Origin: Mucilaginibacter sp. UBA4741
Lineage (GTDB): Bacteria > Bacteroidota > Bacteroidia > Sphingobacteriales > Sphingobacteriaceae
Direction: 5' to 3'
Assembly: GCA_002403905.1 (NCBI GenBank)
Contig: DHIR01000089.1
Location: 1 to 18,222, forward strand
DNA length: 18,222 bases
The position numbers were made by a program, and so were the translations under genes. Below, in pieces: positions 1,599-16,680 of the stretch (the first letter of the stretch is position 1; the number at the start of each line of letters is the position of its first letter). The notes below the pieces were generated by a model, which was not told where the DNA came from, made no database searches, and saw only the letters and a list, made by a program, of their open reading frames with translations.

Positions 1599-1652
1599 GC
1601 TTGTTTTTTGTTCTTTGACTGTAAAGAGGGGTGGATTGTTACAATCTTTTTT

Positions 1653-1717
1653 GAGTAGTGAGTTTTGAGTGGTGAGTTATGAGTTTAAAGTCTCTGAACT
1701 CATAACTCATAACTACC
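1653..1717 (-). repeat. Heptanucleotide array and hairpin after gatC
   Basis: On the plus strand five heptads of the form gagtnnt (gagtagt, gagtttt, gagtggt, gagttat, gagttta) run from 1653 to 1687. They are followed at 1697-1717 by aactcat, aactcat and aactacc. The two parts form a perfect 13-bp stem, 1673-1685 with 1697-1709, around an 11-base loop. Read from the minus strand, the array begins at the gatC TAG (1719-1717). It could be a 3' end stabiliser or termination hairpin for the gatC mRNA; no U-tract is evident. Confidence 0.7.
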
Positions 1718-2004
1718 TACCCAATCACTTTCGCTACCAAAAAGTATTGGTCGTCATGCTTGGGCGAGTTTTGCAGCGCTTCTTCAACGGTAACATCCTG
1801 TTTAACCACGTCTTCCCTAAATACATTTACTTCGTTTGATAGGTAAACCAACGGCTCAACGGCTGAGGTGTCTATCTCATTAAGTTTAGCCATAAAGCTT
1901 AGAATCTTGTTCAAGTCGCCAATCATTTCCTGCTTTTCGGTTTCGGCAAGTTCAAGGCGGGCAAGGTGGACTATCTTATCTACGGTTTCGCTGTCAATAA
2001 TCAT
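1717..2004 (-). CDS. gatC: Glutamyl/aspartyl-tRNA amidotransferase subunit C
   Basis: GatC is the small subunit of the GatCAB amidotransferase, which converts Glu-tRNA(Gln) and Asp-tRNA(Asn) to their amidated forms in the cytoplasm. At 95 residues the length is right. The sequence follows the family: an N-terminal helix VDKIVHLARLELAETEKQ, then ILSFMAKLNEIDTSAVEPL, then an extended tail ending in a short helix with the FxxAKVI-type terminus. It starts one base after the stop codon of the plsC gene upstream (stop 2006-2008, ATG 2004-2002), so the two are surely co-transcribed. gatA and gatB are not in the window, which is common because the three subunits are often scattered. Confidence 0.93.
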   Translation of the reverse strand: MIIDSETVDKIVHLARLELAETEKQEMIGDLNKILSFMAKLNEIDTSAVEPLVYLSNEVNVFREDVVKQDVTVEEALQNSPKHDDQYFLVAKVIG

Positions 2005-2005
2005 A

Positions 2006-2731
2006 TTATACTAATTTCTGGTTGATAATGTTGTGGATCCTGTCGCGCAGGGCATCGGCATCATCGGGTGTTAAATTTGCCGTTTCAATAGGCTTATGTA
2101 CAAATATATGGCAAATTCCCGGTTTGCTGCCATATTCCGAGCCGTTGTTCCACAATACTTTCCAGGTATCTATTGAAGTTACAGGCAAAATGGGAATCTT
2201 CAGTTCAATAGCCAGCCGGAACGCGCCTTTTTTAAAAGAGTGCAGTTTCGGCGGATATTCGGTCGGAATGGTTGCTTCAGGGAAAATAACTACACTTATT
2301 CCTTCTTTTAATTTATCGGCAGCCAACTTGAATGCCCTGAAAGATGATATTTTGCTATCGCGGTTTACGGTTATATCAATGGTCCTGAAAAAGAAACCGA
2401 GCACCATATTGCTCAATAATTCTTCCTTGCCAATAAAAGCATGATTATTTTTTGCCGCTATGCTGATGGTAGATACATCTAAATTTGAAGTATGGTTGCC
2501 GCAAATAATATAAGTGCGTTTCCAATCTATAGGTTCCTCATAGTCAATATTGAAAAATATGCCCGAAATAGTAGCACTGCAAACAATAATGAACCTCCTG
2601 AACCGGTTGATGTATTTATATCTGCTTTGCCCGCGTGAAAGAAAATATAAAATTGGCCAAACCAGAATAAAAAAGAAAGCTACGCTATACCTATAAAAAT
2701 AGGTGTGTATTCTTTTTAAAACTCGTTTCAT
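2006..2731 (-). CDS. plsC: 1-acyl-sn-glycerol-3-phosphate acyltransferase paralog 1
   Basis: This PlsC-family acyltransferase transfers an acyl chain to lysophosphatidic acid to give phosphatidic acid at the inner membrane. From the ATG at 2731 it has 241 residues. A hydrophobic N-terminal segment (about 16-33) is the likely membrane anchor. The catalytic HX4D motif is H80-D85 in NHTSNLD. The phosphate-binding arginine region is TVNRDS (122-127), and IPILPV is the fourth block. The FPEG block reads FPEA here (150-153), an oddity not shared by the tandem paralog. I chose the ATG at 2731 because the proteins align from this methionine and the TTG at 2740 is the end of a perfect -7 box. It runs into gatC with a one-base gap. 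The exact acyl acceptor (glycerophospholipid or ornithine-type lipid) cannot be told. Confidence 0.88.
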   Translation of the reverse strand: MKRVLKRIHTYFYRYSVAFFFILVWPILYFLSRGQSRYKYINRFRRFIIVCSATISGIFFNIDYEEPIDWKRTYIICGNHTSNLDVSTISIAAKNNHAFIGKEELLSNMVLGFFFRTIDITVNRDSKISSFRAFKLAADKLKEGISVVIFPEATIPTEYPPKLHSFKKGAFRLAIELKIPILPVTSIDTWKVLWNNGSEYGSKPGICHIFVHKPIETANLTPDDADALRDRIHNIINQKLV

Positions 2732-2737
2732 TGAGCC

Positions 2738-2745
2738 CAAAGATA
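2738..2745 (-). promoter_or_regulatory. -7 promoter box of plsC paralog 1
   Basis: The minus strand reads TATCTTTG, a perfect match to the Bacteroidota -7 consensus TAnnTTTG. It ends 6 bases before the ATG at 2731. I see no clear -33 TTG at the expected distance. The mRNA would have almost no leader. Confidence 0.5.
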
Positions 2746-2806
2746 AATAAAAGTTGATGGAGTTTGTCAGGATAAAATGTATTCAACTTGATCTAACCTA
2801 ATTAAC

Positions 2807-3535
2807 TCATTCAACCAACTTCCTATTAATAATTCCATATATCTCATCGCGCAAAGTATCCGCGTCGTCAAGCTTTAGGTGGGCGGTTTGTACCGGTTTA
2901 TGAACATATATATGGCATACACCTGGTTTGCTGCCATGGTCAAGGCCGGTATCCCATAAAATTTTCCAGGTATTGGTTGATGAAACAGGTATGATAGGTA
3001 TTTTCAAATCGATAGCCAGCCTGAAGGGGCCGTTTTTAAAATCGTTTAATTGCGGTGGGTATTCGCTCGGTATCATACCCTCGGGGAATATAATAACTGA
3101 TATGCCACTCGCCAAAGCCTCTGCCGCTTTTTTAAATGCGCGGTATGACGACAACTTGCTTTCACGATTAACGGGAATATCCACCGACCTGAAAAATATG
3201 CCGGTAACAAACTCGTCTTTAAGCTCTTCTTTGCCCATGAAACAAAAGTTATTCTTTGTCATAAGGCTCATTGCGGTAATATCCAGGTTTGAGGTATGAT
3301 TGGGGCAGATGATATAGGTTTTATGCCAGTCTATAGGTTCTTCAAACGAAAAACTGTATATAATACCGGCTATTATCGAACTTAAAAATCCCCATATCCG
3401 CCTAACCTTATTCATGTCGTTGTACCTTTGGGGCTTGCGCGAAAAATAGTACAGGAACGGCCATAGTACGATATAAAAAAAACCAACACTGTAACGGTAA
3501 AAGTAGCAGTGCAGTTTCCTTAAAAATATTTTCAT
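2807..3535 (-). CDS. plsC: 1-acyl-sn-glycerol-3-phosphate acyltransferase paralog 2
   Basis: This is the tandem paralog of the neighbouring plsC gene; the two align from their ATGs through at least residue 160 without an obvious gap. From the ATG at 3535 it has 242 residues. An N-terminal hydrophobic segment (about 16-32) anchors it to the membrane. HX4D is H80-D85 (NHTSNLD), the arginine block is PVNRES, FPEG is canonical at 150-153, and IPIIPV is block four. The apparent TTG start at 3544 is the end of a -7 box, so ATG 3535 is preferred. It is divergent from trpS with only 38 bases between start codons. It is followed by plsC1 after a 75-base spacer holding another promoter box, so both may be made from one or two transcripts. 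Confidence 0.88.
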   Translation of the reverse strand: MKIFLRKLHCYFYRYSVGFFYIVLWPFLYYFSRKPQRYNDMNKVRRIWGFLSSIIAGIIYSFSFEEPIDWHKTYIICPNHTSNLDITAMSLMTKNNFCFMGKEELKDEFVTGIFFRSVDIPVNRESKLSSYRAFKKAAEALASGISVIIFPEGMIPSEYPPQLNDFKNGPFRLAIDLKIPIIPVSSTNTWKILWDTGLDHGSKPGVCHIYVHKPVQTAHLKLDDADTLRDEIYGIINRKLVE

Positions 3536-3541
3536 CGTCTT

Positions 3542-3549
3542 CAAAAATA
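3542..3549 (-). promoter_or_regulatory. -7 promoter box of plsC paralog 2
   Basis: The minus strand reads TATTTTTG, a perfect TAnnTTTG match, 6 bases before the ATG at 3535. That is the same spacing as in the sister gene. It lies only 11 bp from the oppositely oriented trpS -7 box, so the two promoters must overlap. Confidence 0.5.
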
Positions 3550-3560
3550 TAAAAAATACT

Positions 3561-3568
3561 TACTTTCG
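3561..3568 (+). promoter_or_regulatory. -7 promoter box of trpS
   Basis: TACTTTCG matches TAnnTTTG with one mismatch and ends 5 bases before the trpS ATG at 3574. No clear -33 element is visible; it would fall in the plsC2 start region. Confidence 0.45.
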
Positions 3569-3573
3569 CCGCT

Positions 3574-4569
3574 ATGGAAACTGTTGTGAGTGGTATAAGG
3601 TCTACCGGGAACCTGCATTTGGGTAATTATTATGGTGCGATACAAAACTTCGTGAAAATGCAGCACGAGTATAATTGCTTTTTTTTTATTGCCGATCTGC
3701 ACTCGCTTACCACGCACCCAACGCCTGATAACCTGCATGTTAATGTTAAAAATGTACTGGTTGAGTACCTGGCAGCGGGTATTGACCCGGAGAAAGCCAC
3801 TATCTACGTACAATCGGATGTCCAGGAAATCTCTGAGCTATACTTATACCTAAACATGAACGCCTACATGGGCGAACTTGAACGTAGCACCTCATTTAAA
3901 GACAAAGTACGCGCCAACCCTGATAATGTAAACGCCGGCCTTTTAACCTATCCGGTTTTAATGGCGGCTGATATATTGATACACAAAGCTACCAAAGTAC
4001 CCGTAGGTAAAGACCAGGAACAACACCTTGAAATGGCCCGTACCTTTGGTAATCGTTTTAACCGTTTATATAATAAAGAATATTTCCCCGAGCCGTATGC
4101 GTTCAACTTTAGCGAGAACCTGGTGAAGATTCCGGGACTGGATGGCAAAGGTAAAATGGGTAAATCAGAAGGAGAGGGCAACGCTATTTTCCTTTCAGAC
4201 TCGCCCGAGGTTATCCGAAAAAAAGTTATGCGTGCCGTTACAGATAGCGGACCGACAGCCGAAAATCAGCAAAAACCGGAGGAAATACAGAACCTGTTCG
4301 ACCTGATGAAGGTTGTATCTGCTCCTGATACCATTGCTCATTTTGATAATCTATATAATACTATGCAGATCCGTTATGGCGATTTGAAAAAACAATTAGC
4401 CGAAGACATGATCATTGCTACAGCCCCAATCCGCGAGAAGATAAGTGATATTGCCAATGATGCCCCATACCTGCGCCAGGTGGCCCGTTACGGAGCTATA
4501 AAAGCAAGAGAAAGCGCAGCCAAGACTATTAAAGAGGTGAGAGAGATAATTGGGTTTAAGAGTTTTTGA
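3574..4569 (+). CDS. trpS: Tryptophanyl-tRNA synthetase
   Basis: TrpRS is a class I enzyme that charges tRNA(Trp) with tryptophan in the cytoplasm using ATP. The 331-residue length is normal for bacterial TrpRS. The HIGH-equivalent motif is GNLHLGN (12-18), following VVSGIRST. The KMSKS loop is KMGKS (194-198) within GKGKMGKSEGEGN, the shape seen in Bacteroidota enzymes. Other family blocks are FFIADLHSLT (37-46), LNMNAYMGELERSTSFKDK and GLLTYPVLMAADIL (122-135). The C-terminal helical anticodon-binding part is complete. The ATG at 3574 immediately precedes the conserved N-terminus. It is divergent from plsC2 and followed by a heptad array. Confidence 0.97.
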   Translation: METVVSGIRSTGNLHLGNYYGAIQNFVKMQHEYNCFFFIADLHSLTTHPTPDNLHVNVKNVLVEYLAAGIDPEKATIYVQSDVQEISELYLYLNMNAYMGELERSTSFKDKVRANPDNVNAGLLTYPVLMAADILIHKATKVPVGKDQEQHLEMARTFGNRFNRLYNKEYFPEPYAFNFSENLVKIPGLDGKGKMGKSEGEGNAIFLSDSPEVIRKKVMRAVTDSGPTAENQQKPEEIQNLFDLMKVVSAPDTIAHFDNLYNTMQIRYGDLKKQLAEDMIIATAPIREKISDIANDAPYLRQVARYGAIKARESAAKTIKEVREIIGFKSF

Positions 4570-4571
4570 TT

Positions 4572-4646
4572 AGTCCATAGTCGATGGTCCATAGACCATA
4601 GTAAATTTAGTAGAAACTATTGACTATGGTCCATAGACCATGGACT
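4572..4646. repeat. Heptanucleotide array and hairpin after trpS
   Basis: Heptads agtccat, agtcgat, ggtccat and agaccat run from 4572 to 4599, starting 3 bases after the trpS TGA. A second block at 4623-4646 reads actatgg, tccatag, accatgg. The 16-mer atggtccatagaccat, itself a 6-bp hairpin with a CATA loop, occurs at 4584-4599 and 4626-4641. The segments 4585-4602 and 4623-4640 can pair over 16 of 18 positions. The right arm ends in the likely -33 element of the next gene. Confidence 0.7.
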
Positions 4647-4676
4647 TGGAAATTTAACATTCAAATTATATCTTAG
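4646..4676 (+). promoter_or_regulatory. Promoter of the deoxynucleoside kinase gene
   Basis: TTG at 4646-4648, a 20-base spacer, then TATCTTAG at 4669-4676 fits the Bacteroidota pattern TTTG-N17-23-TAnnTTTG with small deviations. The -7 box ends 5 bases before the ATG, so the mRNA should be nearly leaderless. Confidence 0.5.
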
Positions 4677-4681
4677 CGAAT

Positions 4682-5296
4682 ATGCATATAGCTATTGTTG
4701 GAAATATAGGAGCCGGTAAAACTACCCTCACAGAACTGCTGGCCAAAAATTACGGCTGGGAACCTTTATATGAAGCTGTTGATAATAATCCGTACCTGGA
4801 AGATTTTTATGGTGACATGAAACGCTGGAGCTTTAACCTACAGATATATTTTCTGAACAGCCGTTACCGCCAGATCATTGACATACAAAAAAGCGGTCGT
4901 GATATTATACAGGACAGAACCATTTATGAAGATGCTTACATATTTGCAGAGAACCTGCATGATATGGGCCTGATGACCAGCCGCGATTACGAAAACTACG
5001 AATCCATCTTTAATAACATAACCGAGTACATTAAGCCACCCGACTTGCTGGTATATTTAAAAGCATCGGTACCAACGCTGGTAAATAATATACAGCGTAG
5101 GGGCAGGGAATATGAGATAGGTATCCGTATAGATTATTTATCAAAATTGAACGAGAAGTACGATAAATGGATAAACGGCTATAAACTGGGTAAACTGTTG
5201 GTGTTAGATAAGGATAATTTGGATTTCGCTAACAATACTGAGGATATGTCATCGATCATCCAAATGGTTGAACGGGAAATTAACGGGCTATTTTAG
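4682..5296 (+). CDS. Deoxynucleoside kinase
   Basis: This 204-residue protein belongs to the dCK/dGK/dAK family, which phosphorylates deoxynucleosides at the 5' position with ATP for nucleotide salvage in the cytoplasm. The P-loop GNIGAGKTT is at 7-15. E31 in LYEAVD, W49, Q54 and R61 in the SFNLQIYFLNSRY stretch occupy the usual substrate-pocket positions. The DRS-like motif is DRTIYED (78-84). The LID arginines lie in QRRGREYE (138-145). The C-terminal VLDKDNLDF strand is also typical. Which base it prefers cannot be read from the sequence. It sits between trpS and kdsB on the same strand but has its own likely promoter. A heptad array begins at its stop codon. Confidence 0.92.
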   Translation: MHIAIVGNIGAGKTTLTELLAKNYGWEPLYEAVDNNPYLEDFYGDMKRWSFNLQIYFLNSRYRQIIDIQKSGRDIIQDRTIYEDAYIFAENLHDMGLMTSRDYENYESIFNNITEYIKPPDLLVYLKASVPTLVNNIQRRGREYEIGIRIDYLSKLNEKYDKWINGYKLGKLLVLDKDNLDFANNTEDMSSIIQMVEREINGLF

Positions 5297-5328
5297 TTAT
5301 GAGTTTTGGGTTATGAGTTTTAAGTTTT
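5294..5328. repeat. Heptanucleotide array starting at the kinase stop codon
   Basis: Successive heptads are tagttat, gagtttt, gggttat, gagtttt and aagtttt. The first three bases are the TAG stop codon of the deoxynucleoside kinase gene. Confidence 0.65.
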
Positions 5329-5352
5329 TATAATTATATGATAATTTCATAC

Positions 5353-5387
5353 CACTCACCACTTATTACTCACCACTCATCACTCAC
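5353..5387. repeat. Heptanucleotide array abutting the kdsB start
   Basis: Five uninterrupted heptads (cactcac, cacttat, tactcac, cactcat, cactcac) end exactly at the base before the kdsB ATG. They therefore occupy the whole ribosome-binding region. The word is roughly the complement of the array at 5294-5328, so imperfect pairing across the spacer is possible. Confidence 0.7.
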
Positions 5388-6113
5388 ATGCAAATCTTAG
5401 GTATCATTCCTGCACGTTACGCGTCATCCCGGTTCCCCGGGAAGCCATTGGTTGATATTGGCGGCAAGAGCATGATACAGCGGGTTTATGAGCAGGCAAA
5501 AAAAAGTGATCATTTGACCGAGGTTATTGTTGCTACAGATGATGATAGAATATTTGATCATGTAATAGCCTTTGGCGGTGTAGCCGTTATGACCAGCGCC
5601 GACCACCAAAGCGGTACCGACCGTTGTGCCGAGGTTGCTTTAGCTAACCCACAATACCAAGTAATAATAAACATACAGGGCGATGAACCTTATATCGACC
5701 CTGAGCAGATAACCAAGCTGGCGGCTTGCTTTACTTCGCCCGATGTGCAGATAGCAACACTGGTAAAAAAGGTTAAAACAGAGCAAGAGCTAAATAACCC
5801 CAATACGCCAAAAGTTATAGTAAATAAATTGAGCGAAGCAGCCTATTTTTCGCGCTCGCCCATACCGCATATTAGGGGAGAGGAACCGGCCAACTGGCTG
5901 GAGTTTTATTCGTTTTTTAAACATATTGGCATTTACGGTTACCGGGCCGATGTTTTGCAGGAAATAACCAAACTACCTATATCAGCCTTAGAAAAAGCCG
6001 AGAGTCTGGAGCAATTGCGCTGGATAGAAAATGGCTATCGTATTAAAGTTGCGGAAACAGAATTGGAAACTTATGCCGTGGATACGCCAGCTGATTTAGA
6101 GTTGTTGAAGTAA
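5388..6113 (+). CDS. kdsB: 3-deoxy-manno-octulosonate cytidylyltransferase (CMP-Kdo synthetase)
   Basis: KdsB activates Kdo with CTP to CMP-Kdo, the donor for the inner core of lipopolysaccharide, in the cytoplasm. The 241-residue length is normal. The nucleotide-binding N-terminus is PARYASSRFPGKPL (8-21). ATDDDRI, SGTDRC and IQGDEP follow in order, with the aspartates that bind the metal and substrate. The C-terminal part has FKHIGIYGYR, LEKAESLEQLRWIENG and AVDTPADLE, all diagnostic of KdsB as opposed to other cytidylyltransferases. It implies a Gram-negative outer membrane. The start ATG at 5388 comes straight after a heptad array, with no Shine-Dalgarno sequence. CTP for the reaction comes from PyrG, encoded 1 kb downstream. 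Confidence 0.96.
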   Translation: MQILGIIPARYASSRFPGKPLVDIGGKSMIQRVYEQAKKSDHLTEVIVATDDDRIFDHVIAFGGVAVMTSADHQSGTDRCAEVALANPQYQVIINIQGDEPYIDPEQITKLAACFTSPDVQIATLVKKVKTEQELNNPNTPKVIVNKLSEAAYFSRSPIPHIRGEEPANWLEFYSFFKHIGIYGYRADVLQEITKLPISALEKAESLEQLRWIENGYRIKVAETELETYAVDTPADLELLK

Positions 6114-6135
6114 TACTTACCTCCTAACAGTTTCC

Positions 6136-6278
6136 TGTTTGGCTAAAGCCACCTTATTTATTTTTGTTTTATCCGTTGACTAAAGTCAACGACAATGATA
6201 CCTTGTATATTCAATTCATTGCCGTCCCATTTATGGGGCGGGGACAAAGGCTTAGTACTAATTGGCTTTAGCCAAACA
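6136..6278. repeat. Composite palindrome cluster between convergent genes
   Basis: The outer arms 6136-6151 and 6263-6278 form a perfect 16-bp inverted repeat; each contains the small palindrome ggct-aa-agcc (or its complement). Inside are cgttgact-aa-agtcaacg (6174-6191, 8-bp stem) and a 9-bp stem at 6222-6241 (ccgtcccat / atggggcgg, one G-T pair). The cluster fills the spacer between kdsB and the minus-strand gene at 6284. It resembles REP-like elements of Bacteroidota; no transposase gene is nearby. Confidence 0.65.
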
Positions 6279-6283
6279 ATATG

Positions 6284-6856
6284 TTATTTTACCTTACTAT
6301 ACAAAGCCGCCACCTTACCACGGCACTCATTTAATATCACCACCGCCTGCGTTAAATTATCAACCACTTTATGTTTAAAGGCTTTGCTGCGGCGGTTTTT
6401 GGGTATCTGCCTTATCAGCTCATCGTTTTCATACATGCGGGTATCAATATTATTATAAATTTCGGCGGAGTTGAAGTTGGGGATCTTTAGGTTGTCTATT
6501 AACGGGCGGTTATTGATCAATATTTTCCGCAAGTCAATCACATTGGTTTGCATTATGCGCAGTGAGTTGTTAAAGTGATGATCGTTAAAGCCACCTTTAT
6601 TTATCAGGTTGATCAAATTATTTTGGTTGATAATAAGTACCCCAACCTTTTTATTAAAATTAACAGCCAGGTTTTTAAAGCTGATCCTGTCGGGTTTGCG
6701 GGCAATCAGGTCCGCGTTCTCTGTAAGCCGGGAGAATAATTTCGACATCATGTTTAATGAATACAGGTATTTTTCATACCCATCCTTGTTTTTTGGCAGG
6801 GCAAAATTGATTTCGGCAATAAATAACAGTGTTAGCAACAGCAGTAGCTTCTTCAT
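6284..6856 (-). CDS. Secreted hypothetical protein
   Basis: I do not recognise this 190-residue protein. It begins with a clear Sec signal peptide: MKK, then the hydrophobic run LLLLLTLLFIAEINFA, with likely cleavage around residues 19-20. There is no lipobox cysteine, so a soluble periplasmic or secreted product is expected. The mature part is basic, rich in Asn, Ile, Leu and Lys, with heptad-like leucine and isoleucine spacing that suggests a helical bundle. No catalytic motif is visible, and the only mature-region cysteine is in NECRGK near the C-terminus. It is convergent with kdsB and divergent from pyrG. The high Asn/Lys content differs from the surrounding housekeeping genes and suggests a fast-evolving or lineage-specific gene. 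Confidence 0.75.
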   Translation of the reverse strand: MKKLLLLLTLLFIAEINFALPKNKDGYEKYLYSLNMMSKLFSRLTENADLIARKPDRISFKNLAVNFNKKVGVLIINQNNLINLINKGGFNDHHFNNSLRIMQTNVIDLRKILINNRPLIDNLKIPNFNSAEIYNNIDTRMYENDELIRQIPKNRRSKAFKHKVVDNLTQAVVILNECRGKVAALYSKVK

Positions 6857-6987
6857 GATTTTTGTAAGTTGTAATTATGTAGAAAGAAAATATTTCTTCT
6901 TTTGTTTAAATTAAAATCAGGATTCCACATTCCCCCAAAACCTTTTCAACAATTGTATTTTCTTAACTCAAACACCAAAAATATTCT

Positions 6988-6995
6988 TACTTTTG
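6988..6995 (+). promoter_or_regulatory. -7 promoter box of pyrG
   Basis: TACTTTTG is a perfect TAnnTTTG match, 60 bases upstream of the pyrG ATG, giving a leader of about 55 nt. I see no clear -33 TTG at the normal distance. Confidence 0.4.
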
Positions 6996-7055
6996 TATCC
7001 CGTACACAAACAATTAGCAGCGGCTTAAAACTACTGCCGATTTTCAACAAAAATC

Positions 7056-8666: not shown

Positions 8667-8691
8667 TTAATTTGAGTACGATACGATAGAA

Positions 8692-10515
8692 ATGGATAGA
8701 AATACGTTTACAGGATTATTCCTGATCATGATCATTATAGCCGGTTCGGTTTGGTTTTTTAAACCTAGTTCGGCCGAGATCGCAAAAGAAAAAGCATTAC
8801 AACACCAGGATTCATTAAAAAGAGTAGGTATTAAAACACCCGCTACAGCAATAATTGATACTGCAAAGATCGCTAATAAACCGGTTGATACAGCCGCTTT
8901 AAAAAGCCCGTTTGGCGCTACCTTAAATGGTACCGAAAAACTGATCACTGTAGAGAACAAAGATCTTAAATTAAAATTAAGCACACGCGGTGGTAGCATA
9001 TACTCTGTAGAGTTAAAAAACTTTAAAACGTTTGATAAAAAGCCGTTGGTTTTATTTGATGGCGATGCCAACAAGTTTGGATTTAGCTTTGCTGCAGGTG
9101 TAGCTAATGTTAACACCAGCGAAAGGTATTTTACACCAAGTGCCGCAGGTTTACAGGTTACCGGTCAGGATTCATCGGCCATAACCATGCGTTTAAGCTA
9201 TAGCCCAACCCAGTATATTGATTATATATATACCTTAAAAGGCGAGGGCTATAAAGTTGGATTGGTTATTAAAGCAACAGGCCTGGATAATGTAATTGCC
9301 AATAGCAGCAGTATTAATATAAATTGGGAAAGCAACATCCATAAGCTGGAAAAAAGTATTACGCTTGATCGTCAGAATTCATACATCGGTTATTTTAATA
9401 CCGAAAGCAACTACGACTTTTTTGGTGATACCAAAGACGACCAGAAAGATATTGCCGATAAGAAAATGCAATGGGTAAGCTTTAAGCAGCATTTCTTTTC
9501 GAGTGTGTTGATGTCAAAAGACGGTTTCAGCAAATCTAATTTTATAGTAAGTACAGATACCAGTAACCACGCTGATATTAAACAGCTAAAGGCCAACCTG
9601 GTATTAGCGCGTGATGCTGACGGGACCTTCCCGCTTGATTTTTACTTTAGCCCCAACCATTTTAAAACATTGCAGGCACAGGGCCATAGTCTTGAGAAGC
9701 AAATTTACATGGGCTGGGGCCCTTTAAAATATATTAACCGTTATGCGGTACAACCGGTGTTTAATTTCCTGACCCTGTTTAACTGGAACTACGGTTTAAT
9801 TATACTGGCATTAACTGTTATACTGAAATTAGTTTTATCACCGCTTACTTACAAGTCATACTTATCAATGGCTAAGATGCGGGTTTTAAAACCAGAGATG
9901 GACGAGATCAAAGCTAAAGTTGGCGAGGATAATCCTACCTTATTACAGCAAGAATATCTCAAGCTCTATAAAAAGGCTGGTGTAAATCCATTAGGCGGTT
10001 GTTTGCCATTGCTGATACAGATGCCTATTGTTATCGCGTTCTTCCGCTTTTTCCCCGGCTTGTTTGAGTTACGCGGACAAAGCTTTTTATGGATGCATGA
10101 CTTGTCGACTTATGATTCGATAGTAAACTTCGGTTTCAGCATACCATTCATAGGTGATCACTTGAGTTTAATGTGTTTGTTGATGACCATATCGACATTG
10201 ATATACACTTACTTTAACAACCAGATATCAGGTGTAAGCGGCCAAATGAAATACATTGGTTATATCACTCCGGTAATTTTCTTAGGCGCGTTGAATGGTT
10301 ACCCGGCAGGTTTGAATTATTATTACTTCCTGGCTAACATGCTTACCTTTTTACAGCAATACATTATCCGTTTAATGGTTGATGACAAAAAGATTCATGC
10401 CCAGATACAGGAAAACAAAAAGAAACCCGAGGATAAAAAGAAAAAATCAGGCTTCGGCGCTAAAATGGAAGAGATGATGCGCCAGCAACAACAGGTGCAG
10501 GCGAAGAAGAAGTAG
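8692..10515 (+). CDS. yidC: Membrane protein insertase YidC
   Basis: YidC inserts and folds inner-membrane proteins, alone or with SecYEG. The protein has 607 residues and the Gram-negative layout. TM1 is at about 7-23, a linker follows, then a beta-rich periplasmic domain (about 75-340), and the insertase core from about 362. The core begins WNYGLIILALTVILKLVLSPLT, continues SMAKMRVLKPEM and NPLGGCLPLLIQMPI (432-446), then the last membrane segments at about 488-560. The position of the conserved hydrophilic-groove arginine (E. coli R366) holds K379, a conservative change. The tail is very basic (KKKPEDKKKKSG, ending QAKKK), as expected for ribosome contact. It is probably co-transcribed with pyrG and is followed by a good intrinsic terminator. 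Confidence 0.97.
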   Translation: MDRNTFTGLFLIMIIIAGSVWFFKPSSAEIAKEKALQHQDSLKRVGIKTPATAIIDTAKIANKPVDTAALKSPFGATLNGTEKLITVENKDLKLKLSTRGGSIYSVELKNFKTFDKKPLVLFDGDANKFGFSFAAGVANVNTSERYFTPSAAGLQVTGQDSSAITMRLSYSPTQYIDYIYTLKGEGYKVGLVIKATGLDNVIANSSSININWESNIHKLEKSITLDRQNSYIGYFNTESNYDFFGDTKDDQKDIADKKMQWVSFKQHFFSSVLMSKDGFSKSNFIVSTDTSNHADIKQLKANLVLARDADGTFPLDFYFSPNHFKTLQAQGHSLEKQIYMGWGPLKYINRYAVQPVFNFLTLFNWNYGLIILALTVILKLVLSPLTYKSYLSMAKMRVLKPEMDEIKAKVGEDNPTLLQQEYLKLYKKAGVNPLGGCLPLLIQMPIVIAFFRFFPGLFELRGQSFLWMHDLSTYDSIVNFGFSIPFIGDHLSLMCLLMTISTLIYTYFNNQISGVSGQMKYIGYITPVIFLGALNGYPAGLNYYYFLANMLTFLQQYIIRLMVDDKKIHAQIQENKKKPEDKKKKSGFGAKMEEMMRQQQQVQAKKK

Positions 10516-10541
10516 AGATTAGTGATTGAAGATTAGAGATT
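10514..10541. repeat. Heptanucleotide array overlapping the yidC stop
   Basis: Four heptads (agagatt, agtgatt, gaagatt, agagatt) begin inside the yidC TAG stop codon (10513-10515). Unlike the arrays after gatC and trpS, this one has no complementary partner; a GC-rich terminator follows directly. Confidence 0.6.
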
Positions 10542-10545
10542 AGTT

Positions 10546-10575
10546 ATGGCTCGCGGTAATCGCGGCCATTTTTTT
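10546..10575 (+). terminator. Intrinsic terminator after yidC
   Basis: atggc-(t)-cgcg pairs with cgcg-gccat around a gtaat loop: 9 bp with a one-base bulge, 10546-10569. A run of seven T (10569-10575) follows. It lies 30 bases after the yidC stop and should end the pyrG-yidC transcript. Confidence 0.75.
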
Positions 10576-10582
10576 ACCCAAT

Positions 10583-10661
10583 TGTCATTTCGAACGAAGA
10601 GAGAAATCTATACACGCGCAAATAGCAGAAGTATAGATTTCTCGCTATGCTCGAAATGACA
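10583..10661. repeat. Long imperfect inverted repeat
   Basis: The outer arms tgtcatttcga (10583-10593) and tcgaaatgaca (10651-10661) pair over 11 bp. The inner arms gagaaatctatac (10601-10613) and gtatagatttctc (10631-10643) pair over 13 bp. Symmetric 7-base internal loops separate them, with a 17-base apical loop. The words match a dispersed intergenic repeat style I know from Bacteroidota genomes. It separates the yidC terminator from the next promoter. Confidence 0.7.
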
Positions 10662-10709
10662 TGAATTTTTATTTTTTTACAATTCACTAAAAAAATTAGT
10701 AAAATCTAC

Positions 10710-10717
10710 TACATTTG
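10710..10717 (+). promoter_or_regulatory. -7 promoter box of the exonuclease fusion gene
   Basis: TACATTTG is a perfect TAnnTTTG match and ends 3 bases before the ATG at 10721. Its last three bases are the TTG that could be misread as a start codon. The transcript should begin at or next to the ATG. Confidence 0.5.
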
Positions 10718-10720
10718 GAT

Positions 10721-12085
10721 ATGTATGCAATTGTAGATATTGAGACCACGGGGGGGCATGCCAGCGCAAACGGTATTACCGAAATTGCCATTTGTTTACA
10801 CGATGGTAAAAAGATAACCAAACGCTTTAGTACGCTTGTTAATCCCCGCAGGGACATACCTATTTACATACGCGCCTTAACCGGCATTACCAACGAAATG
10901 GTAGCCGAAGCGCCGCCTTTTGAAGACGTAGCCGCCGATATTTATCACCTGCTGCACGGCAAAATATTCATTGCCCATAATGTTAATTTCGATTACTCTT
11001 TTGTGCGCTATCATTTGGCAGCCGCCGGGTATGATCTGCAAAGCAATAAGCTATGTACCGTAAGGCTGGGCCGCAAAATATTACCGGGACTGCCATCATA
11101 CAGCCTGGGTAAGCTATGCAGACATTTGGGTATTGATAACGAAAGCCGCCACCGCGCCATGGGCGATGCCGAGGCCACTGCCGAACTATTTAGCCTGCTG
11201 CTGCGTAACGACAAGGATGATCACATTAAACAAGCACTAAAAGCAAACTCTAAAGAACAGGTATTGCCGCCAAATCTTCCTAAAAAAACAGTACAACAAT
11301 TGCCGGCTACACCTGGTGTATATTATTTTCATGACGCTAAGGGCAAGGTGATATACGTAGGTAAGGCCAAAAATATTAAGAAACGGGTAAGCAGTCATTT
11401 TACCGGCAATAACCCCGGTGTGCAACGGCAGGGATTTTTGCGAGAGATCCACCAGATAACACACCAGGTTTGCGGTACAGAGCTGATAGCTTTTGTATTG
11501 GAAGCGGTAGAGATCAAGCGCTTGTGGCCCAAATATAACCGCTCATTAAAGCGTTTCGAACATGCTTATGGCTTGTATATGTTCGAGGATCAGCGTGGAT
11601 ATATACGTTTGGCGGTTGATAAACATAGAAAATATACCGGGGCGATTTATACCTGCAACTCCATGCTGGAGGGCCGCAATATATTGAATCAATTGATAGA
11701 CACCTTTGAGCTTTGCCCCAAGCTTTGTTTCATCCAGAATAATACGGAGTCCTGCATCGGCAACGCCAAAGAACAATGCGCTTGCACCGGTGCGGAGAGT
11801 GTCGATAGCTATAACGCAAAAGTAAACCTGGCATTGGCCGAACTTAATAAGGCCCTGCCAACCTTCGCCATACGCGATGATGGCCGTACGGACGATGAGC
11901 ATAGCTGTATCCTGGTCGAGAAGGGTAAGTTTTACGGAATGGGATATATCTCGCAATACTTTGATGTAGAGAGCTTACAACAGCTAAAAAACTATATTAC
12001 GCCGTATCCGGGTAACGACTACATTAAAAACCTGGTGGCTAATTATGCCGATAAGTTCCCTCAGCGGAAGGTTGTGTTTGCGTAA
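10721..12085 (+). CDS. DnaQ-like exonuclease fused to Cho/UvrC-type GIY-YIG endonuclease
   Basis: From the ATG at 10721 the protein has 454 residues and two nuclease parts. The N-terminal DEDDh exonuclease (about 1-165) has D6/E8 in VDIETTGG, D91 in AHNVNFDYSFV, and H144/D149 in HRAMGDAEAT, so all five metal-binding or catalytic positions are present. The GIY-YIG nuclease (about 190-275) has GVYYF (199-203), VIYVGKAKNIKKRV (210-223, with R222) and the metal glutamate in LEAVEIKRLWPKYN (E261). The C-terminal part has cysteines 332, 336, 345, 353 and 355, the pattern of Cho/UvrC proteins, where such cysteines can hold an iron-sulfur cluster. A repair or damage-incision role with strand trimming is inferred. 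TTG 10715 is rejected as start because it lies in a -7 box. Confidence 0.92.
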   Translation: MYAIVDIETTGGHASANGITEIAICLHDGKKITKRFSTLVNPRRDIPIYIRALTGITNEMVAEAPPFEDVAADIYHLLHGKIFIAHNVNFDYSFVRYHLAAAGYDLQSNKLCTVRLGRKILPGLPSYSLGKLCRHLGIDNESRHRAMGDAEATAELFSLLLRNDKDDHIKQALKANSKEQVLPPNLPKKTVQQLPATPGVYYFHDAKGKVIYVGKAKNIKKRVSSHFTGNNPGVQRQGFLREIHQITHQVCGTELIAFVLEAVEIKRLWPKYNRSLKRFEHAYGLYMFEDQRGYIRLAVDKHRKYTGAIYTCNSMLEGRNILNQLIDTFELCPKLCFIQNNTESCIGNAKEQCACTGAESVDSYNAKVNLALAELNKALPTFAIRDDGRTDDEHSCILVEKGKFYGMGYISQYFDVESLQQLKNYITPYPGNDYIKNLVANYADKFPQRKVVFA

Positions 12086-12132
12086 TAATTTTTTCATTGT
12101 CATATATGCTATAGGCTGATTTGAAAAAAGAA

Positions 12133-12164
12133 TTTGCTTTTCTCAACAATAACTATTAATTTAG
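12133..12164 (+). promoter_or_regulatory. Promoter of the TlpA-like gene
   Basis: TTTG (12133-12136), a 20-base spacer and TAATTTAG (12157-12164) fit the Bacteroidota promoter with one mismatch. The predicted leader is about 22-25 nt. The TTTG lies in and at the edge of the loop of a 10-bp hairpin (12121-12146, one mismatch). Confidence 0.5.
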
Positions 12165-12192
12165 TTGTCAAACCTCAACTAACCTAAAGATC

Positions 12193-13713
12193 ATGAAAAA
12201 AGCAGTAATCAAAACCAGCCTGTTTATTTGTTTCTTAACTATTTCAATTTTAGCAAAGGCACAAACATCAGACGAAACAAAGCGCCTGGAAAAAATAAAA
12301 CACCTTGTGGCGGTTATTAATGCCCACCCGGACAGTATTGCTGCACACCGGGTATATATATACCTGGCAGGTTGGGACAATATGCTTCTGCAACAAAATT
12401 ATAAAACCTGGCTACAGAGATCCCGCTTTTCTACAAACGCGTTATTGCAATTAGGATGGAACGCGGGCGAGCGACCGGAGGCCAAACAGTTTTTTTTAAA
12501 GGCGTTAGAGACCGATTCTACCCGGGCAGAAATATGGAATGCCCTTGCAGGCGCCAATTTTATTGCAGGCGATAATTTAAAATACAGCGAATACAAAAAA
12601 CGAGCGTCGGAATTGGCTCCTGATAATGCAGATTATGCAGCGAGTTATATGTATTCATTAGAAAAGATAGATCCTGCTAAATATAAATCACTGTTAGTTA
12701 CGTTTGAAGATCGCTTCCCTAATACTGTCCGCGGGGCGCAATCGTTGTATAGGTTGGCGCTGGAGGAGACGGATACCGCGACGCGTATTAAAGCGTTTGA
12801 AAAATTAAGCACGGTGTATTACTTGCATAAAGATTGGATAATTGGAAGTGTTAAAGATTTGTATGACTTATACCTGCAAACCGACCCACAAAAGGCCGTT
12901 GAGCTGGCTAACACATATCACTGGCCACCAAAAGCAGTACAAGCCCAAAAAATCTTAATGATTAAACAATTTTCTGCTGAAAGAAAATATGGACAGGCAT
13001 TAGTAGTGATTGACTCTTTAGAACAGATGAAAAACTTATACCAGGCAGATCTGCTAGTGTATAAAAAGGCTGAGTTGTATGATCTGATGGGCGCTTCAGG
13101 CAGGGCTTATGATACCTTAATGAAAAAAATGATAAAAACACCAACCGCAAAATTGCACAATTTGTTGGTAAAATACGGCGACAAAATAGGCAAACAGGAA
13201 AGCGATGTGAGTGCTGATTGGTGGAAAATGCTGGAACAAAATGCCAACATGGCACCGGTATTTAGCTCAAAGCTATTTACCGCGGATAAAAGAGTATCGC
13301 TAAGCGATTATCGTGGGAAAGTAGTATTGCTTACTTTCTGGTTCCCGGGTTGCGGGCCTTGCCGGGCAGAGTTCCCGCATTTTGAAAATGTGCTGAAAAA
13401 GTTTGACCGCGGCCAGGTGGCCTACTTGGGTGTAAACGCAATGGAAGAGCAAGATGGGAATGTACTGAACGTAGTTGATAAAGAAATGCTGACATTTACA
13501 CCTTTACATGGAACGCGAAAGGCAGAAAAGCTCTTTAATTTTACTGTTTTCCCCACTAATTTTTTAATTGACAAACAAGGGCGGATAATTTTCAGGGATT
13601 TTGAAATTGGAGATGATAATGAAGACTTGTTAGAACTCATGATCAACCAGCTATTGAATGCAGATAAAATCGTACAGCCCCGATTAATTGCCGATACGAT
13701 GAAGAAGAATTAA
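12193..13713 (+). CDS. Periplasmic TlpA-like thioredoxin-fold protein with helical repeat N-domain
   Basis: This 506-residue protein has a Sec signal peptide (MKKAVIKTS, hydrophobic core to about 20, AKA-Q cleavage near 23-24), placing it in the periplasm or cell envelope. Residues about 30-345 are helical with TPR-like units, for example the repeated pattern of paired helices around 84-145 and 260-315. The C-terminal TlpA/AhpC-TSA thioredoxin domain (about 352-495) has VVLLTFWFPGCGPCRAEFPH with the redox pair CGPC at 387-390 and the cis-proline loop FPTNFLID (453-460, P454). It probably reduces or oxidises thiols of envelope proteins; the helical part may bind the client. It stands alone with its own promoter, convergent with pyrF. 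The substrate is unknown. Confidence 0.88.
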   Translation: MKKAVIKTSLFICFLTISILAKAQTSDETKRLEKIKHLVAVINAHPDSIAAHRVYIYLAGWDNMLLQQNYKTWLQRSRFSTNALLQLGWNAGERPEAKQFFLKALETDSTRAEIWNALAGANFIAGDNLKYSEYKKRASELAPDNADYAASYMYSLEKIDPAKYKSLLVTFEDRFPNTVRGAQSLYRLALEETDTATRIKAFEKLSTVYYLHKDWIIGSVKDLYDLYLQTDPQKAVELANTYHWPPKAVQAQKILMIKQFSAERKYGQALVVIDSLEQMKNLYQADLLVYKKAELYDLMGASGRAYDTLMKKMIKTPTAKLHNLLVKYGDKIGKQESDVSADWWKMLEQNANMAPVFSSKLFTADKRVSLSDYRGKVVLLTFWFPGCGPCRAEFPHFENVLKKFDRGQVAYLGVNAMEEQDGNVLNVVDKEMLTFTPLHGTRKAEKLFNFTVFPTNFLIDKQGRIIFRDFEIGDDNEDLLELMINQLLNADKIVQPRLIADTMKKN

Positions 13714-13737
13714 TAACACTAATTGCACTGATTTTTT

Positions 13738-13800
13738 CGAATTTCACAAATTAGCCTATCAACTCTAATTCGTGAAATTCGCTATAATTCGATTAATTCG
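13738..13800. repeat. Hairpin and aattcg repeats between convergent genes
   Basis: cgaatttcacaaatta (13738-13753) pairs with taattcgtgaaattcg (13766-13781) with one mismatch over 16 bp, around a 12-base loop. The right arm continues into a short array in which aattcg starts at 13767, 13776, 13786 and 13795, at steps of 9-10 bases. It is placed where both the TlpA-like gene and pyrF end, so a two-way termination or 3' stabilising role is possible. No U-tract follows on either strand. Confidence 0.6.
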
Positions 13801-13805
13801 TGTCC

Positions 13806-14639
13806 TTATATTATCCCCGCTTTCTCCAGCTCAACCTGCATTTGCTGCTGCATGCTCAAAGCTTCAGCGCGGGCGGCATCTGCAAAATCTTCGCCATTAC
13901 TCGCGTAAATTATAGACCGGGAGGCGTTTACCAGTAGCCCGCAATCTTTGTTCATTCCGTATTTGCAAACATCAGTTAAACTGCCGCCTTGCGCGCCTAT
14001 GCCGGGTACCAGTAAAAAGTTGTCGGGGGCGTATTTGCGTATATCGGTAAACTCAGTGCTTTTGGTGGCGCCTACTACATACATTATTCTATCGGCACCG
14101 GCCCAGGTATTGGCTTTTTTAATTACGGCTTCGTATAAATAGCCATCGCCGGTTTCCAGATATTGAAAATCTTTACTGCCTACTGATGATGTTAGCGCCA
14201 ACATAATTACCCACTTACCATCATACTTTAAATAAGGTGTAACGCTGTCATTACCCATATAAGGAGTAACAGTAATGGCATCAAAGCTCATTCCCGAGGT
14301 TGACTCATCAAAAAAAGCGCGGGCATATTTATCAGATGTATTGCCTATATCACCGCGTTTGGCATCTATTATATTCAAGCAATCAGTAGGTAAATATTTC
14401 CAAGTGGCTATCAGGCTTTGCAGACCTTTAACACCATAGGCCTCATAAAAAGCCGAGTTAGGTTTATAAGCCACACAAAGATCTTTAGTAGCATCAATAA
14501 TGCGCTTATTAAACTCCAGGATAGGGTCGGGGTATTGCTTTAAAAATTGGGGGATCTTATCAATATCGGTATCCAACCCTACACATAGAAATGATTTTTT
14601 TTGTTTTATCTGGTCTATAAGTTGCTGGCGATTGATCAT
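13806..14639 (-). CDS. pyrF: Orotidine 5'-phosphate decarboxylase, type 2
   Basis: PyrF catalyses the last step of UMP synthesis, the decarboxylation of OMP, in the cytoplasm. The 277-residue length and motifs fit the longer type 2 family rather than the 230-residue E. coli type. CVGLDTD (19-25) holds the first substrate-binding aspartate, K59 lies in [10 protein letters not shown], and the catalytic D-x-K-x-x-D is D92-K94-D97 in [20 protein letters not shown] and [12 protein letters not shown] form the phosphate-binding loops, and [11 protein letters not shown] closes the site. It is divergent from rho, with 319 bases between the start codons, and convergent with the TlpA-like gene. UMP from this enzyme feeds PyrG after phosphorylation to UTP. 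Confidence 0.97.
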
Positions 14640-14958
14640 TGATAGAAGCGGTAATTTTTTTAATGCTCAAAAAAACTAAAAATTAGCTTAAGTGTTGGAT
14701 TATTGTAGATATTTTTTTTAAAAGTTTGTTTTTATAAAATAATTGAGTAGAATTGTAGTGTTATCCTTTGAATTTTTCTTGCACTAAAGAAACATTTTTA
14801 AAATTCCACGTTAATTATTTCAATAAGCTACCTGGGTTTTAACATTTCAAACAAGCTGCAAATTAATTTCTTTCATAAAACAATCTGAGTATAATATATT
14901 TAAGACTCACGAATAACTATCGTAATAATAACCCCCTTTTGAACCCATAATTCATATT
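14640..14958. other. Divergent spacer between pyrF and rho
   Basis: This 319-base AT-rich spacer holds no convincing ORF. It must carry the pyrF promoter (minus) and the rho promoter (plus). A candidate rho promoter lies at 14725-14755; I could not identify a good -7 box for pyrF. The remaining 200 bases before rho would be transcribed as a leader. No strong hairpin or T-run terminator is visible in the leader. Confidence 0.6.
14725..14755 (+). promoter_or_regulatory. Candidate rho promoter
   Basis: TTTG (14725-14728), a 19-base spacer and TAGAATTG (14748-14755) match the Bacteroidota promoter with one mismatch. If used, rho mRNA has a leader of about 200 nt, long compared with the other genes here. 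Confidence 0.4.
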
Positions 14959-16578
14959 ATGTCTGATACAACCGAATTGAACGACAAACTCGTTTCTGAG
15001 TTGCGCGAAATTGCTAAAAGTTTAGGTATTGCTGACGCTGACTCTCTAAGAAAGCCGGAGCTAATAACCAACATTGTACAAATGCAGCAACTAATTGAAG
15101 CTGCAAGAGCACAACAACAAACCGTAGAAAACAACTACGCCCCTATAGGCGCACCCGCCAAAGAAGAGACCGGCGAAAAGAAAACACGTAACAGAATACG
15201 TGTTGTAAAAAATACTAACCAACCCCGTATTGAGGTTCCGTTAGATGATACCAACTTGTTTGATTTGCAGGACGATGAGCCGCAAACTGACGAGGAGCAA
15301 AATGAAGATATAGTTCCGGTAGAAGCGGTTGGGGAAACACCCGAACAGGAAGGCGAAATTGCCGCAAGCACATCTGCCGATCCAACAGCCGAAGGCCGCC
15401 CGCAAAAATTTGAGCGCCGTGTACAGCAGCAAAAAAATCAGGAGCCGGCTATTAATTTAGATTTTGATAATGTTATTGTAAACGAAGGTGTATTGGAAAT
15501 TATGCCTGACGGATACGGTTTCCTGCGTTCGTCTGATTATAACTACTTAACTTCTCCTGATGATATTTATGTATCACAGTCGCAAATAAAATTATTCGGC
15601 CTTAAAACCGGCGACACTGTACGCGGAAGCATACGCCCGCCAAAAGAGGGCGAGAAATACTTCCCGTTGGTACGTGTTGAAGCCATTAACGGCCGTATAC
15701 CTGCCGAAGTGCGTGACCGTGTTCCTTTTGATCACTTAACGCCGCTTTTCCCGTCAGAAAAATTAAGCTTGTTTACAGATCCGGGCAATTACTCAACCCG
15801 TATTATGGACTTGTTCTCGCCGATAGGTAAGGGGCAGCGTGGTTTAATTGTGGCGCAGCCTAAAACAGGTAAAACCATGTTATTAAAGGATGTAGCTAAT
15901 GCTATCGCTAAAAACCACCCGGAAGTTTACCTGATCATTTTATTGATTGATGAGCGCCCCGAGGAGGTTACCGATATGGCCCGCAGCGTACGCGCCGAAG
16001 TTGTTTCGTCAACATTTGATGAGCCTGCAGAGCGTCACGTAAAAATTGCTAACATCGTTTTAGAAAAAGCTAAACGTATGGTTGAGTGCGGTCATGATGT
16101 AGTTATCCTATTGGATTCTATCACCCGTTTGGCTCGTGCATATAATACCGTAGCTCCGGCATCAGGTAAAATATTATCGGGTGGTGTTGATGCTAACGCG
16201 TTGCACAAACCAAAACGCTTTTTTGGCGCGGCCCGTAACATTGAGGATGGCGGTTCATTAACCATTATTGCTACTGCATTAACAGAAACCGGATCGAAAA
16301 TGGACGAGGTTATATTTGAAGAGTTTAAAGGTACCGGTAACATGGAGTTACAGTTGGATAGAAAACTATCAAACAAACGTGTGTTCCCGGCTATTGATAT
16401 TACTGCTTCAAGTACCCGTAGAGACGATCTGTTGTTAGATAGAGAAACCCTGCAACGTATCTGGATACTACGTAACCACCTGGCCGATATGAACTCGATA
16501 GAGGCGATGGAATTTTTGCAAAGCCAGATAAGAGGTACAAAAACTAACGAGGAATTCTTAATATCAATGAATTCGTAA
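14959..16578 (+). CDS. rho: Transcription termination factor Rho
   Basis: Rho is a hexameric RNA-dependent ATPase that ends transcription. At 539 residues it is about 120 longer than the E. coli protein. The Rho_N helical domain is at about 5-45 ([14 protein letters not shown]). Next comes an insert (about 55-165) that is basic at RNRIRVVKN and then strongly acidic, with many Glu/Asp/Gln and no hydrophobic core, so it is probably disordered. The RNA-binding cold-shock fold (about 173-245) has [20 protein letters not shown]. The ATPase domain has Walker A AQPKTGKT (299-306), [14 protein letters not shown] (331-344), Walker B VVILLDS (381-387), and the Q-loop/R-loop region [22 protein letters not shown]. 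All catalytic features are intact. It has its own promoter and is followed by a large hairpin. Confidence 0.98.
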
Positions 16579-16585
16579 TAGTAGA

Positions 16586-16664
16586 TAGTGGTTTATTAGG
16601 TTGATTAGGTGAGTGGTTAAGACTTTTTGTCGATTATAAAAACTACTCACCTAATAAACTACTA
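16586..16664. repeat. Large hairpin after rho
   Basis: The left arm 16586-16618 pairs with the right arm 16641-16664. The RNA stem has 24 bp including two G-U pairs, with a 9-base bulge (ttgattagg) that repeats part of the stem word. The loop contains gac-ttttt-gtc. It starts 8 bases after the rho stop and shares the style of the heptad hairpins after gatC and trpS, although the heptad phase is clear only in its first two units (tagtaga, tagtggt). Confidence 0.65.
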
Positions 16665-16680
16665 ACTTAACTAACAGTTA

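Follow-up and report, generated by a model that had tools for sequence, protein, structure and literature searches.

Stem-loops built of degenerate heptanucleotide arrays at gene 3' ends in Mucilaginibacter and related genomes

Why do the spacers behind several genes of one contig repeat with a common period of seven nucleotides and with different words? The question is raised by the window, as we call the whole stretch of DNA analysed, an 18,222-nucleotide contig (C73, DHIR01000089.1) from the metagenome-assembled genome (MAG) of the soil bacterium Mucilaginibacter sp. UBA4741, which comprises 4.07 Mb in 299 contigs and is 80% complete. The gene names gatC, trpS, dNK (deoxynucleoside kinase), yidC, and rho are those of a first-pass annotation and are consistent with the translations. 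The elements in question are extragenic stem-loops at gene 3' ends, mostly near the stop codon, and their two arms are arrays of degenerate heptamers. They share the period, a predicted fold, a placement, and a position-wise constraint, and at one gene they carry different words in related genomes.

Heptamer arrays in the window

Fourteen spacers of the window were tested by scoring the best lag-7/14 segment of each and comparing the score with 1000 dinucleotide shuffles of that spacer. The period-7 score was 16.0 for gatC, 11.5 for trpS, and 14.0 for dNK, and none of the 1000 shuffles reached it in any of the three; the weaker, one-armed array of yidC scored 8.5 (P = 0.004). Arrays after stop codons, as proposed in the first-pass annotation, are thus found at three of the genes and weakly at yidC. 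The rho spacer, described there as similar but less regular, has a hairpin and no 7-nt period (lag-7 score 4, P = 0.61), the scores at lags 8 and 9 being higher.

The further proposal that a complementary word lets the 3' end fold holds for gatC, trpS, and dNK, with predicted RNA fold z values of −3.57, −6.35, and −5.56; the value is −5.21 for rho and −1.72 for the yidC array, next to which stands a separate GC hairpin with a T run. The predicted dNK fold consists of 5-bp blocks in a row with 2×2 internal loops between them, every 7 nt. At gatC, the array said to lie right after the stop codon is only a short one (1697–1714, 2.6 copies), and the 5.4-copy array at 1649–1686 is the far arm of the hairpin.

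Ten of the 14 window spacers tested show no significant period across the whole spacer, and in two of these ten (6857–7055, P = 0.026; 12086–12192, P = 0.030) only the first 40 nt reach a nominal P below 0.05. The window is unusually rich in arrays compared with its own genome. No Rfam family matched the window at the gathering score.

Period, placement, and anatomy of the hairpin arms

Hairpins were collected blind to period, with masked N excluded from matches, from 41 stretches of the own genome (558 kb, the window among them, 18 of the 41 chosen at TGAGT matches) and from relatives, namely 20 stretches around trpS and 200 kb each of the genomes G103 and G104, likewise around trpS. The total of 527 hairpins was reduced to 358 with arms of at least 18 nt and to 350 after dropping identical spacers and locus L118, which lies inside the G104 stretch and was doubly counted. 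We call a hairpin periodic when its arm lag-7 identity is at least 0.5 and use those below 0.3 as the non-periodic comparison set.

Over the 350 hairpins, with related copies handled as independent in all hairpin z values, arm lag-7 identity is 0.360 (z = 18.0), followed by lag 14 (z = 11.8) and lag 8 (z = 6.4), and z does not exceed 0.4 at the remaining lags from 4 to 15. Removal of G104 leaves 302 hairpins and a lag-7 z of 20.8. The suggestion that differing words share one period is supported; at the dNK gene, the word is TGAGT, ACGT, or TACGA depending on the species.

When all spacers in 252 kb of unbiased own-genome contigs (22 stretches) were pooled, the period-7 signal was weak (z = 2.7; post-stop z = 1.9), and several other lags were equal or higher, for example lag 3 (z = 7.3) and lag 15 (z = 4.8). 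We set this pooled autocorrelation aside as too diluted, its weak lag 7 being mixed with other lags. Inside the hairpin arms of these contigs (n = 51) the period is present, with z = 3.3 at lag 7, 2.8 at lag 8, and 4.0 at lag 14.

Periodic hairpins are not confined to the genus. At 80 named loci around trpS, Mucilaginibacter and near MAGs have 34 periodic hairpins out of 72, Pedobacter and other genera 12 out of 40, Sphingobacterium 1 out of 3, and Daejeonella none out of 3. Twenty stretches from other families of the class, two of them all N, two chosen at TGAGT matches, and four near PF01797 matches, gave 5 periodic hairpins out of 39; without the two chosen at TGAGT matches, the count is 4/37, with z = 2.1 at lag 7, 4.0 at lag 14, and 3.1 at lag 15. 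No lag-7 excess was found in 19 hairpins of E. coli K-12 (z = 0.5). The median predicted fold z in hand-picked groups is −3.1 for 22 Mucilaginibacter trpS spacers, −3.2 for 18 of Pedobacter type, and 0.3 for 11 unlabelled spacers of other genera. RNAalifold found no consensus structure in 16 aligned trpS spacers, so that covariation could not be counted; we attribute this to repeats aligning out of register.

The placement of the elements follows the direction of the genes. Among deduplicated hairpin-bearing spacers, 56/199 co-directional, 14/58 convergent, and 8/93 divergent ones are periodic, that is, 70/257 for the first two types together versus 8/93 (P = 1e-4; 73/263 and 8/95 undeduplicated). 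As had been claimed, the arrays are not placed at random relative to stop codons: in co-directional spacers, 42/56 periodic hairpins start within 10 nt past the stop, versus 23/66 non-periodic ones (P = 1e-5; undeduplicated, 44/59 and 23/69). The palindromes adjoin gene 3' ends in many copies. Their 5' edge is at the stop codon, and in 22 of the 59 co-directional periodic cases (undeduplicated) no more than 10 nt separate the end of the 3' arm from the next gene.

The period itself ends at the coding sequence: over 77 elements, the match to the array register is 0.38 within the stop codon and about 0.3 before it; coding constraint alone could produce this. We also considered the stop codon as a part of the word and rejected it, as the codon is only weakly in register (88 of 231 letters versus 77.3 expected, P = 0.005, the same 77 elements). 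TAG is enriched among stops at periodic elements (27/77 versus 243/1118, P = 0.011). The word precedes the anti-word in 61 distinct spacers and follows it in 2; words were named from the 5' arms, and order therefore counts only for multi-member families (TGAGT 14:0, GTTCAT 16:0, CAAGA 10:0, TCAAAA 4:2).

In many Mucilaginibacter trpS 3' spacers (e.g., L118, 7996–8111), the 5' arm runs directly into TGTATATTAG, which we take to resemble the Bacteroidetes −7 promoter box, and at such spacers the trpS array and the dNK promoter may overlap. In two spacers between convergent genes (L046, 6230–6348; L047, 7955–8079), inspection by eye shows an array, an ordinary-looking terminator, and an inverted array, so arranged that each gene has a sense-strand array of the same word.

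Within the arms, variation is concentrated by phase (z = 20.4, 95 elements) and falls mainly on two or three of the seven positions, the mean mismatch by ranked phase being 0.02, 0.04, 0.08, 0.14, 0.24, 0.38, and 0.52. The arms of 85 elements pair at 0.80 in register; sliding them by 7, 14, or 21 nt lowers this to 0.67, 0.66, and 0.64, respectively, and other shifts give 0.24–0.29. Units of one arm can thus find partners among several units of the opposite arm, which lets the stem form in several registers.

The core phases of these 85 elements pair at 92% and the variable phases at 60%, compared with 43% under unit permutation, a null that favours the register found. Under a second null, in which the register is re-optimised, the mean score is 14.2 versus 12.1 (z = 7.8), with 70 of 92 elements above their own null. 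This excess indicates that pairing matters beyond the word, though not at every position.

Neighbouring units are less often identical than expected, 4/107 versus about 12.9, over five words with enough data (two perfect TGAGT runs were set aside, and three words with too few chains were omitted). The deficit comes mainly from CAAGANN (1/31, 5.4 expected, P = 0.012), whose units alternate, next-but-one units being identical in 8/14 cases versus 2.7 expected. TGAGTNN is at chance (3/34 versus 3.7 expected), as it is at own loci with nothing set aside (6/37, about 5 expected). Local slippage, which had been offered as an origin of the degenerate arrays, is not supported by these counts; templated addition, which would leave a fixed core and free positions, is a possible source of the arrays.

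Words at orthologous sites and across genomes

Words at orthologous trpS and dNK sites were labelled from a hand-made list, in which GCGTTTG and other Pedobacter words are counted as other hairpins or as none. In 55 Mucilaginibacter rows, 29 trpS spacers carry arrays of GTTCAT (25) or GTCCAT (4), and 20 dNK spacers carry TACGA (10), ACGT (9), or TGAGT (1, the window itself). On a quick tree over the labelled rows, counted with no shuffled control, this corresponds to at least three word changes at trpS and at least five at dNK. The nearest relative of the window at these genes, G140 (L106), has a different word at both. The gene-specific words of the first-pass annotation were rejected in the sense of a lasting pairing of gene and word: gatC and dNK of the window share TGAGTNN, and orthologues elsewhere carry other words.

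A finer comparison is offered by the close pair G103/G104 (median identity 98% in amino acids and, over the final 150 nt of the genes compared, 94% in nucleotides). Its 309 reciprocal best hits gave 187 post-stop stretches with a flank at least 75% identical and both members at least 25 nt long, and 35 of them are less than 60% identical. At these 35 sites, period 7 is present in both genomes at 5, in only one at 7, and in neither at 23 (P = 0.015); with a stricter threshold, the counts are 4, 5, and 26 (P = 0.0085). Periods 5, 6, and 8–11 do not reach 0.05 at the same sites, period 8 giving 0.22 and 0.086.

Two different labels stand at three low-identity sites, a18 (CAGTT to CAAGA) and a293 and a294 (GTCCAT to CAAGA), all of them CAAGANN in G104. 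This stop-anchored comparison supersedes an earlier one without the anchor, in which arrays occurred in 6/29 low-identity spacers and 8/84 others, several low-identity rows having poor flanks, probably from miscalled starts.

Across the genus, three-unit CAAGANN arrays occur in 132/149 genomes (27 matches in the own genome), TGAGTNN arrays in 92/149 (own, 38; 0 to 372 per genome), and TACGANT arrays in 33/149 (own, 0). The reversed-pattern control is informative for TACGA and CAAGA, the latter giving 0 in the own genome and non-zero counts in nine genomes, and uninformative for TGAGTNN, because this pattern is identical when read backwards. CAAGANN has 59 matches in G104 versus 30 in G103. Judged by eye, the dNK word and the genome-wide word counts seemed positively linked; this is confounded by descent, and we do not claim it.

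Perfect heptamer arrays of at least 10 copies stand in sister species at G035:C1:70199-70329 (TGAGTCG), G062:C8:119980-120061 (CAAGAGT), and G074:C14:42273-42361 (TGAGTTG). They are likely unstable loci, and they show that slippage acts on these words elsewhere in the genus.

Interpretation and the features of the window

We judge the chances about even that the elements are 3'-end RNA stem-loops selected for a repeat grammar and not for sequence. The stems would be transcribed and would affect 3' ends or mRNA life, and selection would be the cause of their persistence. The idea that selection acts on period and folding rather than on sequence, already raised at first pass, agrees with the excess of arm pairing, the phase-wise constraint, and the period kept at low-identity sites. 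Acting in RNA, the elements could protect the upstream mRNA or end or insulate transcription, in the manner of the repetitive extragenic palindromic (REP) stem-loops and bacterial interspersed mosaic elements (BIMEs) and not as U-tract terminators. Selection would retain the 7-nt spacing, the complementarity, and the closeness to the stop but not the word itself, which a new one obeying the grammar could then replace. Such a word could be seeded by heptamer slippage with inverted template switching and then selected. Speculatively, a stem with an internal loop after every 5 bp may be spared by RNase III.

Several points weigh against this reading. The terminator scan found no match in the gatC, trpS, and dNK hairpins, whose stems have no U tract. 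In the two convergent spacers at L046 6230 and L047 7955, the terminator, identified by eye, lies between the arms, and transcripts stopping at it would contain a single arm. Folding is not universal, because one-armed arrays exist (yidC; Parapedobacter L210 and L214, by eye). The variable positions pair at only 60%, which is below the expectation for pure pairing selection, and hairpin detection maximised pairing, so that the pairing measures are inflated. No array of the listed words is present in 26/55 Mucilaginibacter trpS and 35/55 dNK spacers. The co-location test has 35 sites and two thresholds, and three of the pairs are two sides of one convergent spacer. Thirteen G103/G104 sites with period 7 in both genomes and at least 60% identity outnumber the replaced ones, and word replacement is therefore not the rule. 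Finally, all stretches and named loci of relatives sit around trpS.

The strongest rival, which we regard as unlikely, holds that these are dispersed selfish palindromes of the REP type or of the type of miniature inverted-repeat transposable elements, moved by a transposase and found at stop codons only because insertion elsewhere is harmful. It would account for the presence of the same words at many loci per genome, for their widely varying abundance given above, and for the near doubling of CAAGANN in G104, where all three two-label sites carry this word. Other palindromes do come and go in these spacers (a54, a79). Compared between loci by blastn, the spacers of the own periodic hairpins match in 46 rows at E < 1e-3, of 17–39 nt among the 20 rows listed; the loops of these hairpins (27 spacers), by contrast, are nearly unrelated, with one match of 9 nt and one of 10 nt at E < 0.1. 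The TAG enrichment fits too, in that REPs often supply the TAG stop, according to the relevant passages of PMC3733652. The foot motifs speak against this rival, GTAG occurring in 10/122 periodic versus 12/240 other hairpins (undeduplicated, 10/128 versus 13/247, P = 0.37) and CGTC in 0/122 versus 10/240, as does the finding that an array of a different word stands at a former array site more often than by chance. PF01797, the Y1 transposase of the type associated with REPs, matches 52 of 60 genomes, with three matches in the own genome and none in G002, G023, G032, and G036 (95–99% complete). All four have arrays, and PF01797 as the driver was therefore rejected.

It is improbable, in our estimate, that the arrays are purely mutational heptanucleotide satellites, in which slippage favours 7-nt units and template switching makes the hairpins without any function. 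In many of the prokaryote genomes rich in long simple repeats, heptamers are the most frequent kind, ascribed to polymerase slippage (Mrazek 2007, as related in passages of PMC4679880); the long perfect arrays of the sister species fit, and the end of the array at the stop codon is what coding constraint alone predicts. Against this stand the unlike neighbours, with CAAGANN units resembling the next but one, the concentration of variation in certain phases, and the recurrence of arrays at replaced sites. Least probable are clustered sites for a single-strand RNA- or DNA-binding protein of cold-shock or S1 type, each domain of which would contact about 7 nt, an idea put forward for TAACTGA repeats: one-armed arrays, a fixed core with free positions, and constant spacing would suit it, and cold-shock proteins binding heptamer repeats are discussed in parts of PMC4679880, but the cores differ entirely between genes and species and the complementary arms are left unexplained.

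Several known systems can be compared with the elements. The short tandemly repeated repetitive (STRR) sequences of cyanobacteria, named as the closest parallel at first pass, are a fair one for unit length, being heptamer arrays between genes; they are tandem arrays, not known to have inverted arms or to be tied to stop codons. The gatC, trpS, and dNK hairpins, unlike intrinsic terminators, are not a GC stem with a T run, and at yidC the terminator is separate from the array. Slippage-made tandem repeats are matched by the long perfect sister-genome arrays, whereas neighbouring units here are no more alike than by chance. REP/BIME elements are likewise short, many-copy palindromes near coding regions, and the TAG of the element is often the stop (passages of PMC3733652); the elements here lack the GTAG/CGTC foot, are independent of PF01797, have 7-nt arrays as arms, and differ in their loops between loci. 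Long simple sequence repeats share the 7-nt bias (Mrazek 2007, as cited in part of PMC4679880), but form long series, in contrast with the few degenerate, partly alternating units described here.

Direct TAACTGA repeats occur in Beggiatoaceae, cyanobacteria, and five Bacteroidetes (passages of PMC4679880). TAACTGA reversed fits a CAGTTNN word of the present genus. The passages concerned describe one word, situated in Beggiatoaceae mostly just upstream of start codons, with one single inverted repeat and no exchange of words (PMC4679880). The exact tandem word (TAACTGATAACTGA, up to two mismatches) has no match in the window.

We tentatively see, as possible though doubtful, a class of bacterial 3'-end RNA elements conserved as a grammar (7-nt spacing, about five paired and two freer positions, multi-register self-complementarity, and a start at the stop codon), the words being exchanged in place between related genomes by a possibly genome-wide process that would favour a single word at any given time, CAAGANN in the case of G104. 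No description of post-stop heptamer hairpins in Bacteroidota was found in the open-access literature, most subscription papers being outside this scope and absence unproven. If selection sees a spacing and folding rule rather than sequence, homology searches would miss such elements by design. The elements would then offer a natural case for measuring structure-level conservation under sequence replacement, and a common 3'-end element would be added to Sphingobacteriaceae. The observations also bear on a long-standing puzzle, the abundance of 7-nt repeats in bacteria.

The features of the window, together with the 7-nt arrays reported by Tandem Repeats Finder (TRF), are collected in Table 1.

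Table 1. Array, hairpin, and terminator features at gene 3' ends in the window
Feature	Positions	Strand	Evidence
gatC 3' end, stop-proximal arm, AGTTATGAGTTATGAGTTCAGA, TGAGTNN word	1692..1716	-	TRF 1697-1714, 7 nt x 2.6, 100%; hairpin offset 2 nt from stop
gatC 3' end, distal complementary arm, about five ACTCANN units (GAGTNNT on +)	1649..1689	-	TRF 1649-1686, 7 nt x 5.4 and 14 nt x 2.6; fold z -3.57
trpS 3' end, stop-proximal arm, GTCCAT word (TAGTCCA units), starts 1 nt past stop	4571..4606	+	TRF 4571-4602; 0/1000 shuffles
trpS 3' end, complementary arm	4619..4650	+	hairpin arms; fold -36.8 kcal/mol, z -6.35
dNK 3' end, stop-proximal arm, TGAGTNN-type units, TRF array extends through TAG stop	5291..5328	+	TRF 5291-5328
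dNK 3' end, complementary arm, abuts ATG of next reading frame (5388)	5351..5387	+	TRF 5351-5387, 7 and 14 nt; fold z -5.56
yidC 3' end, one-armed GATTNNA array, starting at stop codon	10513..10543	+	TRF 10513-10543; P = 0.004
Ordinary intrinsic terminator (GC stem, T run) directly 3' of yidC array	10546..10575	+	terminator scan 10551-10565 + T tail; fold
rho 3' end, long imperfect hairpin without period 7	16579..16680	+	lag-7 P = 0.61; lag-8 score 9.0, lag-9 score 9.5; fold z -5.21

A hairpin takes up the convergent spacer at 13714–13805; its arms tend to a 9-nt period with an AATTCG core (lag-9 score 7; TRF 13776–13800, period 9), and it is perhaps a cousin with a different unit length. A long palindrome beginning TGTCATTTCGAACGAAGAGAGAAATC lies 3' of the yidC terminator at 10582–10662 and looks like a dispersed repeat, because similar-looking palindromes stand in other spacers of the genus. 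The adjacent and similar minus-strand reading frames 2006–2740 and 2807–3544 presumably encode acyltransferases. The sequence CCTATAAATCTTAGTT is present twice, at 10–25 and 865–880, flanking the first gene region (TRF 842–882).

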